Positions 3,335 through 57,499 of a DNA stretch of 64,000 bases are shown in pieces. Numbering within the stretch: position 1 is the stretch's first letter; each line of letters begins with the position of its first letter. Below the pieces are notes generated by a model that did not search any database, had not been told where the DNA came from, and worked only from the letters and a program-made list of their open reading frames with translations. Both the position numbers and the translations under genes were made by a program. Source of the DNA: Methanococcoides sp. AM1 (GTDB taxonomy: Archaea; Halobacteriota; Methanosarcinia; Methanosarcinales; Methanosarcinaceae). The stretch spans positions 186,001-250,000 of the forward strand of contig NZ_CAAGSW010000005.1 in the NCBI RefSeq assembly GCF_900774055.1, read 5' to 3'.

Positions 3335-3385
3335 ATATTCGGCATAAGGCAGGCCAATGATCGTCTTCCTCAACAGATCAGATCA
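3326..3385 (-). pseudogene. Scrap of a gene related to the fragments at 39.1-40.2 kb
   Basis: On the minus strand 17 codons read DLLRKTIIGLPYAEYEK and then stop; a stop also lies just upstream in frame. The peptide and its DNA (about 80 percent by eye) match the end of the open frame at 39920-40156, which reads DLLRKKIIEMSYTEWKK. It is therefore a leftover of the same gene family, too short to function. It sits directly after the ferredoxin terminator. Confidence 0.5.
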
Positions 3386-37099: not shown

Positions 37100-37165
37100 T
37101 ATTGGATTTGTTCGAAGGAATTCGAGGGTTCGAATCCGACCCCCACATAGTAAGTCGGGGATATA
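37100..37165 (+). repeat. tRNA-3'-end-like fragment with a shared downstream tail
   Basis: The stretch GAGGGTTCGAATCC near 37123-37136 looks like a tRNA T-loop, and CCCCCACA follows like an acceptor end, but the T-stem does not pair properly and no 5' half is found. The 14 bases AAGTCGGGGATATA that follow (37152-37165) recur at 1250-1263, with a weaker T-arm-like sequence before them there as well. It may be a decayed attachment site or dispersed repeat. Confidence 0.35.
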
Positions 37166-37373
37166 GGTAACGTGAAAAAACGAAACTCTTCTAAATTTTT
37201 GAGTGTATTCAAGTTCTAATCTTCTCTCCTCACATGCAATGTTATTGAAAAACCATTTTTGGTATGGAAATCCAATTATTATCAATTTTTAAGTTACTTT
37301 CAAGTTATATTTAGAATATCCAAAAATACTAAATAGTGACGACACCCAATTTTTAATGTGGAAGTGGTATGGA

Positions 37374-39052: not shown

Positions 39053-39134
39053 AGAAATTGAAATAACAAATCTTATTGTTGATTTTAGTTATAGCATTTT
39101 TCTTAAGGAAGGGATAAAAAATCCCTTCTCATTT

Positions 39135-39272
39135 TTAGTTTGAAAACCCTATTATCCAATTTTCCAATCCTTCCCTCACATAAGCATTGAGAGTAAACGG
39201 CTTCTCACTTCTGGCATTCTGCTTCATGTAGTGCAACGTACCTTTGGAGAATGCCATTTTTCCCCATAGCAT
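39135..39272 (-). pseudogene. C-terminal fragment of a broken gene (KGTLHYMKQNAR motif)
   Basis: Forty-five codons read on the minus strand with a strikingly conserved-looking middle: WGKMAFSKGTLHYMKQNAR followed by a PFTLN and VREGLENW ending. A stop lies just upstream in frame. It fits as the continuation of the fragment at 39920-40156, whose end EMSYTEWKK would align before WGKM. Some 650 bases including another gene now separate the parts. From memory, some Cas1 proteins end in a similar SKGTLHY segment; I could not verify this and no CRISPR array is present. Confidence 0.5.
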
Positions 39273-39296
39273 CCTCTAACCTTTGTAAACTAAAGT

Positions 39297-39599
39297 TTAT
39301 TTTTCTAGCAATGAAGTCCCTTCTGCTGCCTCCTCTATTGTCATTATAGGAGAGATCTTTCCAGTATGATGCGTTAACATCGGTGGTTTAAAGAATTCAG
39401 AAATTGCCTTCAAACTATCTGATTCGAGGATGAAATAGAAAATATGCTCGTTAGGGCAAACGTATGCTCCATTTATTTTTATGCCCAGTTTTTCTGCTGA
39501 GCTTCTCATTTCCCCAGCCCATTGCTTCATTTCTTCCTTGTATTCTTCTCTTCCAAAACACTGTTCAGGTGTATGCTCAAGGCTAATCATAAATAACAT
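39297..39599 (-). CDS. Small protein resembling ferredoxin-fold DUF3303-type proteins
   Basis: A 100-residue protein. It starts MLFMISLEHTPEQC, has a central helix (EEMKQWAGEMRSSAEKLGIKI), a strand pair (GAYVCPNEHIFYFILESDS) and ends with PPMLTHHTGKISPIMTIEEA. The pattern suggests a dimeric alpha-beta barrel as in DUF3303 or EthD-like proteins, but the assignment is weak. A GGGGG-containing ribosome binding site lies just before the ATG and a TTTTAAATA box about 45 bases upstream, so it appears expressed. It is inserted between two pieces of a broken gene. Confidence 0.6.
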   Translation of the reverse strand: MLFMISLEHTPEQCFGREEYKEEMKQWAGEMRSSAEKLGIKINGAYVCPNEHIFYFILESDSLKAISEFFKPPMLTHHTGKISPIMTIEEAAEGTSLLEK

Positions 39600-39919
39600 T
39601 CTTTATAACCCCCAATAACATCAAGCAGGATTAGTATTTAAAATATTGGTAATAGTGGTCTCTGCAAGAATATACTTCTAAATTTAGCTTTACAGAATAC
39701 CTATTTCCGATCTCAGAAATGACAACTGATAGGTGGATGGACAAAGTTTATTGTTGATTTTTTAGGTAAATTGTCTCAACAAAAAACTTCCCACGCCTTT
39801 TTATCAAGTCAATGTTAATTATTTTAGTAGAATGTACATAGTACTAACCTGTGCAAGAGGCTTGATAACATCCCTTATAGTCTTTGATGCACAGTTTATG
39901 GCGATATCAACATAATCAA
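39600..39919. other. Intergenic remnant region
   Basis: Besides the promoter of the small gene to its left, I see only AT-rich sequence and a 41-codon minus-strand frame (39819-39944) without start signals. It probably contains decayed coding sequence. Confidence 0.35.
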
Positions 39920-40156
39920 TTAGCTCAAATGAATCTTCTTCCATTCGGTATAGGACATTTCAATGATTTTCTTCCTCAACAGATCAGTATCATCCCTCTC
40001 AAATACATAAACAGGATTCATGAACTTATGCTTGATCAGAAAACAGCATGACCTAAAAATAAGGTCTTTTTCGTCAAATTCGAAACTCAAATAACGGTGC
40101 AATCCGCTAAAGAAGTGTAAAAGAAAAGAATAGTGTAAAGGATCCGCAGATCCCAT
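39920..40156 (-). pseudogene. Fragment of the same broken gene (upstream part)
   Basis: An open minus-strand frame of 78 codons ending DLLRKKIIEMSYTEWKKIHLS then stop. The last third resembles the scrap at 3.3 kb and would join naturally to the WGKMAFSKGTLHY fragment at 39.1 kb. There is no ribosome binding site before its ATG, and the start is probably arbitrary. It is best read as part of a decayed gene. The upstream half (LHYSFLLHFFSGLHRYL) matches nothing I know. Confidence 0.45.
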
Positions 40157-40210
40157 ACACTCAAAGTCCCATTCTCGCCAGAGTCGGGATTATTTACGTA
40201 TAATATTGTT

Positions 40211-40366
40211 TTACAGTTTTGCAATGATAGCATCGGTCATTCCGCTAAGGGATGCATCTCCACCCATATCGTAGGTAAGATACTTGCCTTCTCCAATGAC
40301 ATCCTCTGTTGCCTTGAAGATAGCATCTGTCTTCCCAACCCAAGCAGAAGCGGAAGCTTTAGCTCC
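40211..40366 (-). pseudogene. 3' remnant of the native isocitrate dehydrogenase gene
   Basis: The minus strand reads 51 codons, including AWVGKTDAIFKATEDVIGEGKYLTYDMGGDASLSGM in overlapping pieces, and stops at 40211. The YLTYDMGG motif and its distance from the stop are those of the C-terminus of the isocitrate/isopropylmalate dehydrogenase superfamily. An in-frame stop precedes it. The matching N-terminal part lies at 43580-43919. Everything between belongs to inserted DNA, and roughly 200 central codons of the native gene are missing. Confidence 0.8.
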
Positions 40367-40392
40367 CTAATCACATTGCTTATTTAGATACT

Positions 40393-40420
40393 AAAAAGCC
40401 CCGGTCGAAACCGGGGCTTT
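40393..40420 (-). terminator. Strong bacterial-style intrinsic terminator of icd
   Basis: A perfect ten-base-pair GC-rich hairpin (40395-40404 with 40411-40420, loop TCGAAA) is followed on the minus strand by a T run. It lies 20 bases past the icd stop and just before the native-gene remnant, so it marks one end of the inserted segment. Confidence 0.85.
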
Positions 40421-40441
40421 CCTTTTGTTTCCACAATAAAA

Positions 40442-42688
<2,247 letters not shown>

Positions 42689-42717
42689 TTAATAACATTT
42701 TATCGAAGCGAAGCGCT

Positions 42718-42948
42718 TTATTCTATATAAAGAGACCCCATCCCTTTTTTACCCAGGAATTCGTCATTTTGCACAATGATCTCTTCGCGGCTCATTGTCA
42801 TCTCCGGCCAACCTGTTATTTTCTGGTTTTTATAGGGTGTCCATTGAGCTTTTTCATGAAGTGTCTCTTCGGTAAGTAATTTCTCTTTTTCGGGATCGAA
42901 GATAACAAGATCGGCATCTTTACCGACTATAATATCCCCTTGTTCTCT
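42718..42948 (-). pseudogene. 3' fragment of a bacterial hydantoinase/dihydropyrimidinase gene
   Basis: The minus strand reads ~75 codons: GDIIVGKDADLVIFDPEK, then a WTPYKNQKITGWPEMTM segment and NDEFLGKKGMGSLYIE before the stop. This is the C-terminal end of cyclic amidohydrolases such as D-hydantoinase, dihydropyrimidinase or allantoinase, where GxDADLVxFDP and a final GxGxF are conserved. The catalytic barrel is absent. It ends 50 bases before the icd start, so it is probably the donor's upstream neighbour carried along by chance. Its other edge, near 42940, is a sharp join to unrelated coding sequence. Confidence 0.8.
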
Positions 42949-43462
42949 TTAGTTGATGTAAACTTGAATGAATGAGCATCACCCATCTTTTTTATGATAA
43001 TGGGAGGATTAAATCTGTTCTCTGAAAGAGTGAAGGTGAAACCTCCCTTATTCTTCCCTCTTGAATCTCCAACTTTTTTTGAGATCCTGCTTATGTCAAA
43101 AGGGAGGTTGAAACCAACACAAAGGGTTTCTAGCTCAAACACTTCTGGATAAAATACCTCATCAATAAACTCATTTAGAAGGTAAAGGGAGATCTCATTT
43201 TTCTTGCATAACTTAAAAAAGCCTCTTTTTCTTTTTCAGCGAGCATTGAAGGATCATAGAATAACCCCTCATGTTGAATGAAACCTTCATGATAGATCTG
43301 GAAAGAACCTATCTTGAAATTCTGGTATTGATCTATTGTTGTTTCAGTATCAAAGACCAATACCCTATCATGCCTTAATGGATCTTCTCTTGGTTTGAAG
43401 AAGGAGTTACTTGTAGACCCTTCAACCTTCTGAGTATATCCCCTTACAGCGATCTTAGACAT
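42940..43462 (-). pseudogene. Truncated, frameshifted DnaQ-like exonuclease gene
   Basis: Starting at ATG 43462 the product reads MSKIAVRGYTQ, then RVLVFDTETTIDQYQNFKIGSF (an ExoI motif of DEDD 3'-5' exonucleases, DxE), and after a frameshift near 43193 in an A-rich run continues as EVFELETLCVGFNLPFDISRISKKVG, where GFNLPFDIS is the ExoII-like motif. It is cut off at the join with the hydantoinase fragment. Such proteins occur on plasmids and mobile elements. Its start overlaps the stop of another gene fragment upstream. It cannot be functional as it stands. Confidence 0.65.
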
Positions 43463-43577
43463 CTTCCCCCAGCTCCCATCCAAGAGTGATCAAACGCTGT
43501 CCTAGTTCCTTTAACAAAGCTCCAATTGAAATGATATTGTAAGCTCTCTTGTTCTGAGAAGATGTTTTGCTAGATCT
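43455..43577 (-). pseudogene. C-terminal fragment of an unknown gene upstream of the exonuclease
   Basis: The last ~40 codons of a gene read SSKTSSQNKRAYNIISIGALLKE, then GQRLITLGWELGEDV and stop, with the stop overlapping the exonuclease ATG (ATGTCTAA). The overlap shows the two were once a coupled operon. The frame appears longer to 43811, but that part is antisense to the isocitrate dehydrogenase remnant and not real. The family is not recognised. Confidence 0.45.
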
Positions 43578-43579
43578 TA

Positions 43580-43919
43580 TTTTAGCCGAGTGGTGGGTTG
43601 GTGTTAGGGAAGGTCTTGACAGGACGGACGTTTGCATAAAGGTTGTATTTCTGCCTGATGGATACTGCCACACTTCTTGGGGAACCTGCTCCGCCAGGTG
43701 TTGTGGTAGGACCCTTGTAACATGCATCTGCTTCGTCAAGGATAGCACATGTCTCATCAGGAACAAGGGAAGTTCCACCGTTCTTCTCCCACCATTCTGC
43801 TCCTGCTTCACATTTCACGAACTCGACATTTGTGCCAACGGCCTCTGCCACTTTAAGCATAGCATCTACGAGTTCCGGTCCGACTCCATCTCCTTCAATT
43901 ACTGCTCAGTTTTGCTCAT
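43580..43919 (-). pseudogene. 5' remnant of the native isocitrate dehydrogenase gene
   Basis: From ATG 43919 the reading frame is broken after five codons by a one-base loss; in the next frame it continues AVIEGDGVGPELVDAMLK, then GTSLVPDETCAILDEADACYKGPTTTPGG in pieces, SPRSVAVSIRQKYNLYANVRPVK and FPNTNPPLG, where it stops at the junction. EGDGVGPE, GPTTTPGG, and SxRxxxxLYANxRP are signatures of NAD/NADP isocitrate and isopropylmalate dehydrogenases. The SPRSVAVSIRQKYNLYAN form fits isocitrate dehydrogenase best. The gene's end is at 40211-40366. Confidence 0.85.
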
Positions 43920-55873: not shown

Positions 55874-57499
55874 ATGACAGTAAAAAAAGAAATTAAAAGC
55901 TCTGAAAAGATCGAAGATCTGGAACAGACTATCAAAGACCTCAGAGATGAGATCGAACTGGTCACTAGGGAAGCTGGGGAAAAGGAAGAGTCTTATAAGC
56001 TTCATCTTGAGAATCTCAATGATGTCATCTTTAGTGTTGACAAGGTAGGAAACTTTACGTATATAACCTCCGCTATTGAACTTTTTACAGGCTATTTGCC
56101 AGAAGAAGTCATAGGCACATCATTTATGAGATATATACACCCAGAGGATCTTCCAGGTCTGCTTGAAGATATGGACCTGACCCTTAAAGGTGAGCACAAA
56201 CCCTACATGTTCAGAGTTATTGGGAAATCAGGCAAGATAACACATGTACACACTTCTTCAAAAGGAATTGTCAGAAATGGGGAAGTTGTTGGCCTTAATG
56301 GGATCATGGTAAACATCAATCAGCTCAAAAAAGTTGAGCGTGAGTTGATGAAAGAAAAGGAAAAAGCCCAACATTACCTCAATGTTTCCAATGTTATGTT
56401 CGTTGCTCTTGACAGAAACCAGAAAATAACTCTTGTAAATGCGAAAACCGTAGAGATTCTTGGTTATTCTGAGAATGAGTTACTTGGAAGCAACTGGTTT
56501 GATATGGCAATACCTGAGAACGATCATGATAATGTAAAGGGTATATTCAACACTATTATATCAGGTGATATCGATCAATTTCAGTATTACGAGAATGCAA
56601 TTATCACAAGATCGGGTGAAGAAAGAATAATTTCCTGGCATAATTCGACACTTTATGATGATGATGGGAACATCAGCGGAATACTTGCTTCAGGCATCGA
56701 TGTTACTGAAAGGAAGATTGCAGAAAAGACAATGTTGCATGCAAAAATTGAAGCTGAAACTGCAAACCAGGCAAAGACCACATTCATTGCAAACATCAGT
56801 CACGAATTGAGGACACCTCTTAATTCAGTGATAGGGTTCTCAGAAATTCTTCTTGAAAAGAAATTCGGATATATTAATGAAAAGCAAAAAAGATACCTAC
56901 ACAATATATACTCCAGTGGAAAACACCTTCTTGATGTTTTTAATTTAATGCTGGAAGTTTCAAAGATCGAGTCCGAAGTGATTGAACTTAATTATAAGAC
57001 AGTAGAATTAGTCGAATTTGTGGAAAATATCCGGAAACATGTTATCCCAATAGTTCAGGATAAAGAGCAGAGACTGACATTTAATATCAACTCAGATGTC
57101 GAATATATTACAGTCGATCTCGAAAAAGTAGAACAAAGTATTATCCATCTCATTGGCAATGCCAGCAAATTTTCAGAAAATGGTAGCCCCATTATCGTTG
57201 AAATTAAGAATACTGATAAATATCTGGTTTTTGAAGTGTCAGACATTGGAATCGGAATATCAGAGGAAAATATTGATAAACTTTTTAGCCCCTTCACTCA
57301 GATCGATGCATCTTCAACAAGAAGCCATGGGGGAATTGGAATTGGATTATGTCTTGCAAAAAAATACTCAGAATTGCATGGTGGGTCCCTGAATGTAAAA
57401 AGTGAAATCAACGAAGGTAGCACTTTTATTTTTAAGATACCACTAAAACCTGAGATCAATACAGCAATTTTATCTGAAAAAGATAATGAAAAAAAATAA
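55874..57499 (+). CDS. PAS-domain sensor histidine kinase
   Basis: A 541-residue cytoplasmic kinase. A short coiled coil (5-45) leads into two PAS/PAC domains (about 45-155 and 170-285; GNFTYITSAIELFTGYLPEEVIG and QKITLVNAKTVEILGYSENELLG), then a HisKA domain with phosphoacceptor His in ISHELRTPLNS (about 311) and a HATPase domain (LIGNASKFSENG, DIGIGISEENIDKLF, GGIGIGLCLAKKYSE). The HisKA form is the bacterial one, unlike the LRHD type of the kinase at 44-46 kb. There is no response regulator adjacent. It is convergent with a small winged-helix gene. Confidence 0.92.
   Translation: MTVKKEIKSSEKIEDLEQTIKDLRDEIELVTREAGEKEESYKLHLENLNDVIFSVDKVGNFTYITSAIELFTGYLPEEVIGTSFMRYIHPEDLPGLLEDMDLTLKGEHKPYMFRVIGKSGKITHVHTSSKGIVRNGEVVGLNGIMVNINQLKKVERELMKEKEKAQHYLNVSNVMFVALDRNQKITLVNAKTVEILGYSENELLGSNWFDMAIPENDHDNVKGIFNTIISGDIDQFQYYENAIITRSGEERIISWHNSTLYDDDGNISGILASGIDVTERKIAEKTMLHAKIEAETANQAKTTFIANISHELRTPLNSVIGFSEILLEKKFGYINEKQKRYLHNIYSSGKHLLDVFNLMLEVSKIESEVIELNYKTVELVEFVENIRKHVIPIVQDKEQRLTFNINSDVEYITVDLEKVEQSIIHLIGNASKFSENGSPIIVEIKNTDKYLVFEVSDIGIGISEENIDKLFSPFTQIDASSTRSHGGIGIGLCLAKKYSELHGGSLNVKSEINEGSTFIFKIPLKPEINTAILSEKDNEKK

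Follow-up and report, generated by a model that had tools for sequence, protein, structure and literature searches.

Casposon remnants and a spirochaete-like isocitrate dehydrogenase at the native icd locus of Methanococcoides

How did a bacterial isocitrate dehydrogenase (IDH) come to lie between the two ends of the archaeal icd gene, and what part did the mobile-element debris beside it play? The question is raised by a Methanococcoides genome of 2.48 Mb that is 99.9% complete (G000), within the window G000:C5:186001-250000, that is, the whole stretch of 64,000 nucleotides analysed here. Compared genomes are labelled G### and individual DNA stretches from them L###. A preliminary description of the locus had listed an icd start, the tail of an ORF, a frameshifted exonuclease and a hydantoinase tail, and all these parts exist. 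The features of the window, with the evidence for each, are the following:

43585..43905, minus strand: start of the native archaeal icd, now a pseudogene, codons 6-112 (tblastn, 89.7% aa vs the intact icd of G005)
43479..43589, minus strand: casposon HNH endonuclease gene, end only, covering residues 70-106 (tblastn E=1.2e-9; intact homologue L002:1243-1584 with HNH matches)
42936..43462, minus strand: start of a casposon PolB gene, residues 1-176, the exonuclease part, with one frameshift at ~43200 (tblastn to an 890-aa PolB, 54-79% aa)
42933..42947, minus strand: sequence common to both sides of the polB/hydantoinase join, GAGAACAAGGGGATA (L003 vs L080)
42721..42948, minus strand: tail of a putative spirochaete-like hydantoinase/dihydropyrimidinase gene (67% aa to L080)
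40442..42667, minus strand: intact spirochaete-like monomeric isocitrate dehydrogenase, 741 aa (Pfam IDH PF03971, 1309 bits)
40322..40441, minus strand: 3' flank of the IDH gene, presumably bacterial, including a terminator-like hairpin (common to most IDH-bearing relatives; longer in G008/G009)
40214..40342, minus strand: end of the native icd, ~codon 292 to 337 (tblastn, 69.6% aa to the G005 icd)
39131..40026, minus strand: 3' end of a casposon cas1, split by other DNA into the pieces 39131-39263 and 39933-40026 (nhmmer E=4e-29 and 7e-19)
37157..37181, minus strand: casposon terminal inverted repeat (TIR) of a separate remnant (TIR profile E=0.0013)

The PolB/exonuclease start at 43462 overlaps the stop of the preceding ORF (ATGTCTAA). 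The corresponding stretch is a single open frame of 265 aa in G006, so the frameshift at ~43200 is decay within the window genome. The sharp join previously placed at about 42940 is real, as G001 aligns unbroken to window positions 40119-43091 at 97.4%, the join at ~42937 included, and it is therefore not an assembly error. The bacterial DNA beyond it is no random join, since it encodes an enzyme for the same reaction as icd and an identical exchange recurs in 27 genomes from two genera. At least two events are needed to build the locus, as had been proposed. The search for terminal repeats at 40.37 and 43.58 kb that had been suggested found none at those two sites, and short imperfect repeats only, away from them. 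A stretch encoding ASAWVGK near 40.33 kb was rejected as icd because it is part of the IDH 3' flank, and the sole Rfam match (RF02621 at 40376-40440) was taken as chance, with 39.6 of 114 bits, below the family cut-off.

The element behind the debris was identified from its relatives. A DNA search of G000 found two further places, C1:69102-69701 (67%) and C3:283281-283386 (86%). At C1 the match falls at the beginning of an intact gene for an 890-aa family-B polymerase (Pfam DNA_pol_B_2, E=3.5e-12); upstream of this gene come an HNH gene of 113 aa, an ORF of 213 aa and an RHH ORF, and a 406-aa Cas1 gene stands in divergent orientation. This Cas1 matches the crystallised M. mazei casposase 6opm over residues 2-404 (E=5.6e-194). 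HNH and PolB beside Cas1 constitute the family-2 casposon gene block described in 2014 (Krupovic, PMC4046053), whose Cas1, the casposase, has a C-terminal HTH. The 640-bp stretch at icd is an internal scrap of a family-2-type casposon, a known kind of element, and the idea of an undescribed element family is abandoned in view of the intact casposons found, the published gene block and the match to 6opm. The ORF tail matches the HNH endonuclease (E=1e-9) and the exonuclease start matches casposon PolB, which bears out the reading as mobile-element debris. What had been called a DnaQ-like exonuclease does belong to an exonuclease, but as the N-terminal part of a DNA polymerase (PolB residues 1-176) and not as a separate gene.

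The 88-aa exonuclease start gave 19 further matches (32-95% identity) in 11 of the 60 genomes searched, its own included, and 14 of these 19 sit in open frames of at least 889 aa. Of 17 neighbourhoods examined around PolB matches, 16 contained casposon gene clusters (PolB, HNH, small HTH/RHH) and the remaining one is the icd locus of G006; cas1 is merely a short ORF in L028 and L037. The window scrap comprises the HNH end and PolB start only, without cas1 or a target duplication, and no TIRs were found at its edges. Taken alone, the fragment is ordinary debris of a known transposon. It does mark one edge of the icd disruption, where the HNH end abuts icd codon 112, and no casposon gene was found at the three intact-icd loci examined (G005, G070 and G071), which contradicts the exonuclease being a normal chromosomal gene at this position. 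Elsewhere in the genome, a second broken casposon polB (~residues 141-682) lies at G000:C3:281768-283389 (L003, L183); it begins ~35 codons before the end point of the window polB piece.

By in situ (non-orthologous) gene displacement is meant that a native gene is replaced, at its own locus, by a foreign one. The monomeric IDH occurs in 10 of 11 Methanococcoides genomes and in 17 of 27 genomes of a sister genus (g4), presumably Methanolobus; among 60 sampled relatives, representing 25 genera, it was confined to these two (12/60). The sole Methanococcoides without IDH, G005, which we take to be M. burtonii, keeps an intact native icd, as do nine of the ten g4 genomes without IDH; the tenth, G083, has neither gene. 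G083 is also without the flanking TatD gene, so the locus is either missing from the assembly or lost. None of the 38 genomes has both enzymes together, none has a broken icd without IDH (G083 being without the locus), and all 27 IDH genes are situated in the icd region. The conserved neighbours, to which we assign the names TatD-like hydrolase and Re-citrate synthase, adjoin IDH singly or together in 26 of the 27 loci, and G002 has an icd remnant only, 4.7 kb from IDH. G000 holds no other close icd, the nearest being a 338-aa frame with 35% identity. The foreign IDH sits at the native locus and the native icd is destroyed, as in situ displacement implies. Judged by its sequence, the monomeric IDH probably performs the old icd reaction in the cell; that of Methanococcoides methylutens has been characterised (Wang 2020, cited in PMC8287583).

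IDH DNA is 93.4-99.6% identical across all 66 pairs of 12 genomes, and the adjacent Re-citrate synthase gene is 71.9-97.6% identical among 10 genomes. Re-citrate synthase groups G005 with G003, G008 and G009 (95.4-96.4%), among which icd is kept in G005 alone. In a tree of 27 IDH genes the two genera are intermixed (support 30 to 100). These identity patterns and the mixed tree indicate that the cassette moved between species more than once.

Among the 80 best-matching of 594 relatives, the bacterial IDH nearest to that of the window belongs to a Spirochaetales MAG (L080, 81% aa), followed by those of a Bacteroidota genome (74%) and another spirochaete (71%). In L080 a putative hydantoinase/dihydropyrimidinase gene lies directly upstream of the IDH gene, and its end matches the window tail (67% aa); this same gene order indicates that one spirochaete-like segment brought both the hydantoinase tail and IDH. 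The IDH 3' flank showed no similarity to the DNA downstream in L080. No IDH was found on viral contigs, and 49 plasmid records carry one, those listed being bacterial and at most 66% identical. The polB/hydantoinase join sits where both parent genes encode ENKGD. There, L003 (PolB) and L080 are identical at 15 of 17 bases, which none of 20,000 random registers reached, while L080 compared with two other PolB genes scored 11 and 12 (96 and 16 of 20,000 random registers, respectively). Joining through a common sequence of ~15 bp put spirochaete DNA into a casposon polB; the timing of this step we infer.

The entry of IDH into icd left its clearest record in a g4 genome, G080 (L218), where icd is nearly complete around a 2,577-bp insert that holds IDH; when its two flanks are joined, they can be read as icd without a break. 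At the left edge icd runs up to CTACGCAAACGTCA and is followed by GGGATATATATAAAGTGAAAAAAGTGTACGC; at the right edge GTTATAGATCCC is followed by CTACGCAAACGTCA and then by icd onward. The insert presents a casposon end, a truncated opposite end of about a dozen bases and a perfect 14-bp target duplication at icd codons ~94-99. The repeat itself is 15 bp, one base of which is perhaps common by chance, and it is the sole exact direct repeat of at least 14 bases in the 11-kb locus. Intact casposon TIRs have the form GTAC...TATATCCCC, and five intact casposons, chosen because both of their ends were found, have perfect 14/14 bp duplications bounded by GGGATATA and TATATCCC. Casposases make duplications of 14-15 bp, and in vivo sites in M. 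mazei have a common CGCA motif (PMC6977970); CTACGCAAACGTCA contains CGCA, two bases further in. Casposon ends and a duplication of casposon length bound the IDH insert in the icd of G080, and the equality of this length with that of the five intact casposons points to a casposon as the agent that most likely put IDH into icd.

A profile built from 17 TIRs was searched against 32 stretches and gave 11 matches to E 0.5. Upstream of IDH there are two in G080 (E 0.005 and 0.013), two in G013 (0.0004 and 0.08) and one each in G077 and G091 (0.013 each); those at other places are in G003, G004 (two), G010 and the window (37157-37181). None was found in three intact-icd loci, in two stretches beside TatD or in shuffled stretches. 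G013 has a similar junction of duplication and TIR, GCAAATGTCA then GGGATATATATAACG, with the icd start mostly deleted. By pairwise alignment, TIRs were clear in 4 of 11 elements (G006, G013b, G008a and G008b) and marginal in G005a, while the others showed none; nor did a separate alignment reveal any at G000:C1, which is an intact element. It was considered whether the cas1/polB 3' ends, which encode the HTH, might be the TIRs, an idea that arose from cas1 copies, solo and intact, losing similarity at the same codon; it was rejected, as such TIRs as were found lie 0.9-1.8 kb farther out and, on one side in G009, 3.8 kb beyond the cas1/polB 3' end. The element at L025 3959-12391 (G005) has TIRs and a 14-bp duplication.

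The other IDH loci retain these parts to different degrees. Casposon HNH-PolB is fused to hydantoinase-IDH in G000 and PolB to hydantoinase-IDH in G001, and G006 retains these pieces apart from an internal deletion; the HNH/PolB piece is found in these 3 of the 27 IDH loci only. Downstream of IDH, 460 bp of 3' flank and icd from codon 224 onward remain in G008 and G009, roughly 210 bp and icd from codon 259 in G013, roughly 290 bp and icd from ~codon 270 in G026, and 120 bp and icd from ~codon 292 in G000, G001, G004 and G006. In G007 and G010 the native icd leader is fused to the IDH leader at AAAATG. A TATA-like motif stands 109-365 bp before IDH in 17 of 17 g4 loci and ~80 bp before the intact icd of G071; it was not found at the intact icd loci of G070 and G005. 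The motif probably marks the old icd promoter region, which IDH may use.

With these results, we consider it somewhat probable that a casposon put the bacterial IDH into icd and that the cassette then spread between species while its debris was trimmed. A fuller history is proposed more tentatively, in which a casposon picked up the spirochaete IDH and transposed it into icd, after which the locus reached 27 or more genomes at the species level in the two genera. On the first of these readings, the segment of hydantoinase tail and IDH would have joined into casposon polB via the short common sequence, and would now stand where polB once continued, with the polB start on one side and the right end on the other. 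The casposon would have entered the archaeal icd with the 14-bp target duplication that is seen in G080, presumably as the same element as in the window; the G080 ends, the HNH-PolB fusion and the IDH segment would then be parts of one element. The foreign IDH would have replaced the native enzyme at its own locus because only an insertion bringing a working IDH would have been tolerable. Afterwards, the cassette would have passed between species of the two genera, probably by recombination in the surrounding homologous DNA on at least one side, and casposon, hydantoinase and icd debris would have been deleted to varying extents, leaving IDH in many genomes close behind the old icd promoter region. 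Several observations run against this reading. The window icd reaches codon 112, past the G080 duplication, and no TIR is present there, so the left edge of the insert in the window is either secondary or a separate insertion; we read this edge (HNH / codon 112) as secondary, and it may have formed when the segment entered this clade, by homologous recombination on one side and illegitimate joining on the other. In addition, the HNH-PolB piece is confined to three genomes, the TIR matches beside IDH are short and weak (E 0.0004-0.08), and the right end in G080 amounts to no more than about a dozen bases. No intact casposon carrying IDH was found, no IDH gene stands outside the icd region, and another casposon remnant is present nearby in the window.

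The order of events could also be the reverse: an empty casposon would have broken icd, and spirochaete DNA with IDH would have recombined into its polB later, restoring the function. Such a history accounts for the same remnants, and a join by common sequence needs no transposition of IDH. Its intermediate, however, would be without IDH, while G000 offers nothing closer to icd than the 338-aa frame and a broken icd without IDH occurs in 0/38 genomes. The lack of another close icd in G000, and of any assembled locus with a broken icd and no IDH, makes viability argue for IDH having been cargo at the insertion, and we regard the reverse order as unlikely. Rather unlikely, too, is that IDH entered icd by illegitimate recombination and that the PolB-HNH piece and the TIRs of the relatives are unrelated, later casposon debris. 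Such fragments are frequent, with 189 Cas1 matches (a few distant Cas1 among them) and 79 PolB matches in the 11 Methanococcoides genomes, counting intact copies; the window contains a separate remnant at a distance of 3 kb (37.16-40.03 kb); the left edge in the window is no casposon end; and the small share of loci with the HNH/PolB piece (3/27) fits the same explanation. Nevertheless, the duplication and ends in G080 bound the whole IDH insert and not an adjoining piece, the duplication has the length seen in five intact casposons, and TIR remnants stand upstream of IDH in G013, G077, G080 and G091. Assembly artefact or contamination, which the sharp joins between unlike sequences might suggest, has a negligible probability given that the separate assemblies G001 and G006 have the pieces, each with its own deletions, and G001 has the exact join.

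The casposon-borne entry that we favour may be compared with known systems. As in family-2 casposons (PMC4046053), the intact relatives carry a C-terminally extended Cas1, HNH, PolB and small DNA-binding ORFs, with TIRs and target duplications, and G005 holds three copies, as reported for M. burtonii. For those three (MetBur-C1 to -C3), the available passages of the 2014 paper report no TIRs (PMC4046053), whereas TIRs were found here in G005. According to the same passages, described casposons sit between genes or at gene ends and the target is spared; the window piece, in contrast, is internal and without ends, and the insertion is inside icd and associated with a metabolic gene from bacteria. 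In M. mazei Go1, mini-casposons transpose with foreign DNA enclosed by their ends (PMC10359463), so that here too such DNA can be moved into a target site, but that system, as there described, is a laboratory construct that moves into a casposon target site and not into a metabolic gene. The M. methylutens enzyme is also a type III IDH in a methanogen, and its citation, in the portion of PMC8287583 available, makes no mention of the locus, icd remnants or casposons.

Unlike the general concept of in situ displacement, the incoming IDH type is unrelated to icd and a transposon scar is present; as the two are unrelated, the first event cannot have been guided by any similarity to icd. A link between casposons and IDH, metabolic cargo or such displacement was not found in the open-access papers searched; the monomeric IDH of M. 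methylutens had already been published. It is an unusual event that a gene of central metabolism should be replaced in place, in association with a casposon, by an unrelated enzyme from bacteria. Research on casposons treats them as the source of CRISPR adaptation; in the present case a casposon scar sits within a gene of central metabolism, beside the replacing enzyme, and if the proposed history is true, a self-synthesising transposon of the CRISPR-ancestor class exchanged a central metabolic enzyme. The relatives form a series of states, from the end and duplication in G080, through the polB join in the window, to the clean promoter-side fusion in G007 and G010, and this series traces the way in which a native enzyme can give place, at its own locus, to an unrelated one. 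Transposon-borne displacement becomes testable in methanogens with genetics.

The casposon remnant at 37.16-40.03 kb is separate and is not needed for the main event. Pieces of the cas1 3' end are scattered in Methanococcoides, and in the window they lie at 39131-39263, 39933-40026 and 3337-3384. In the fetched stretches, 51 of 61 DNA-profile matches to cas1 reach the 3' end, with similarity stopping at one codon and the 5' end varying; the scattered pieces may be non-autonomous copies or else end-anchored remnants. In the window, ~660 bp that include a 100-aa ORF (39297-39599) come between two parts of the cas1 3' end that are otherwise consecutive; these parts are split alike in G004 and lie together in G007. 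At 37119-37181 the TIR stands beside sequence resembling, by eye, a tRNA gene 3' end (GGTTCGAATCC...); ARAGORN found no tRNA there, and a TIR occupies the equivalent position in G010 and G004. Finally, a 112-bp stretch of the window (56739-56850) recurs at 74% identity and in opposite orientation in L031 (14159-14270) and L073 (12310-12421), near the icd loci of G006 and G001.
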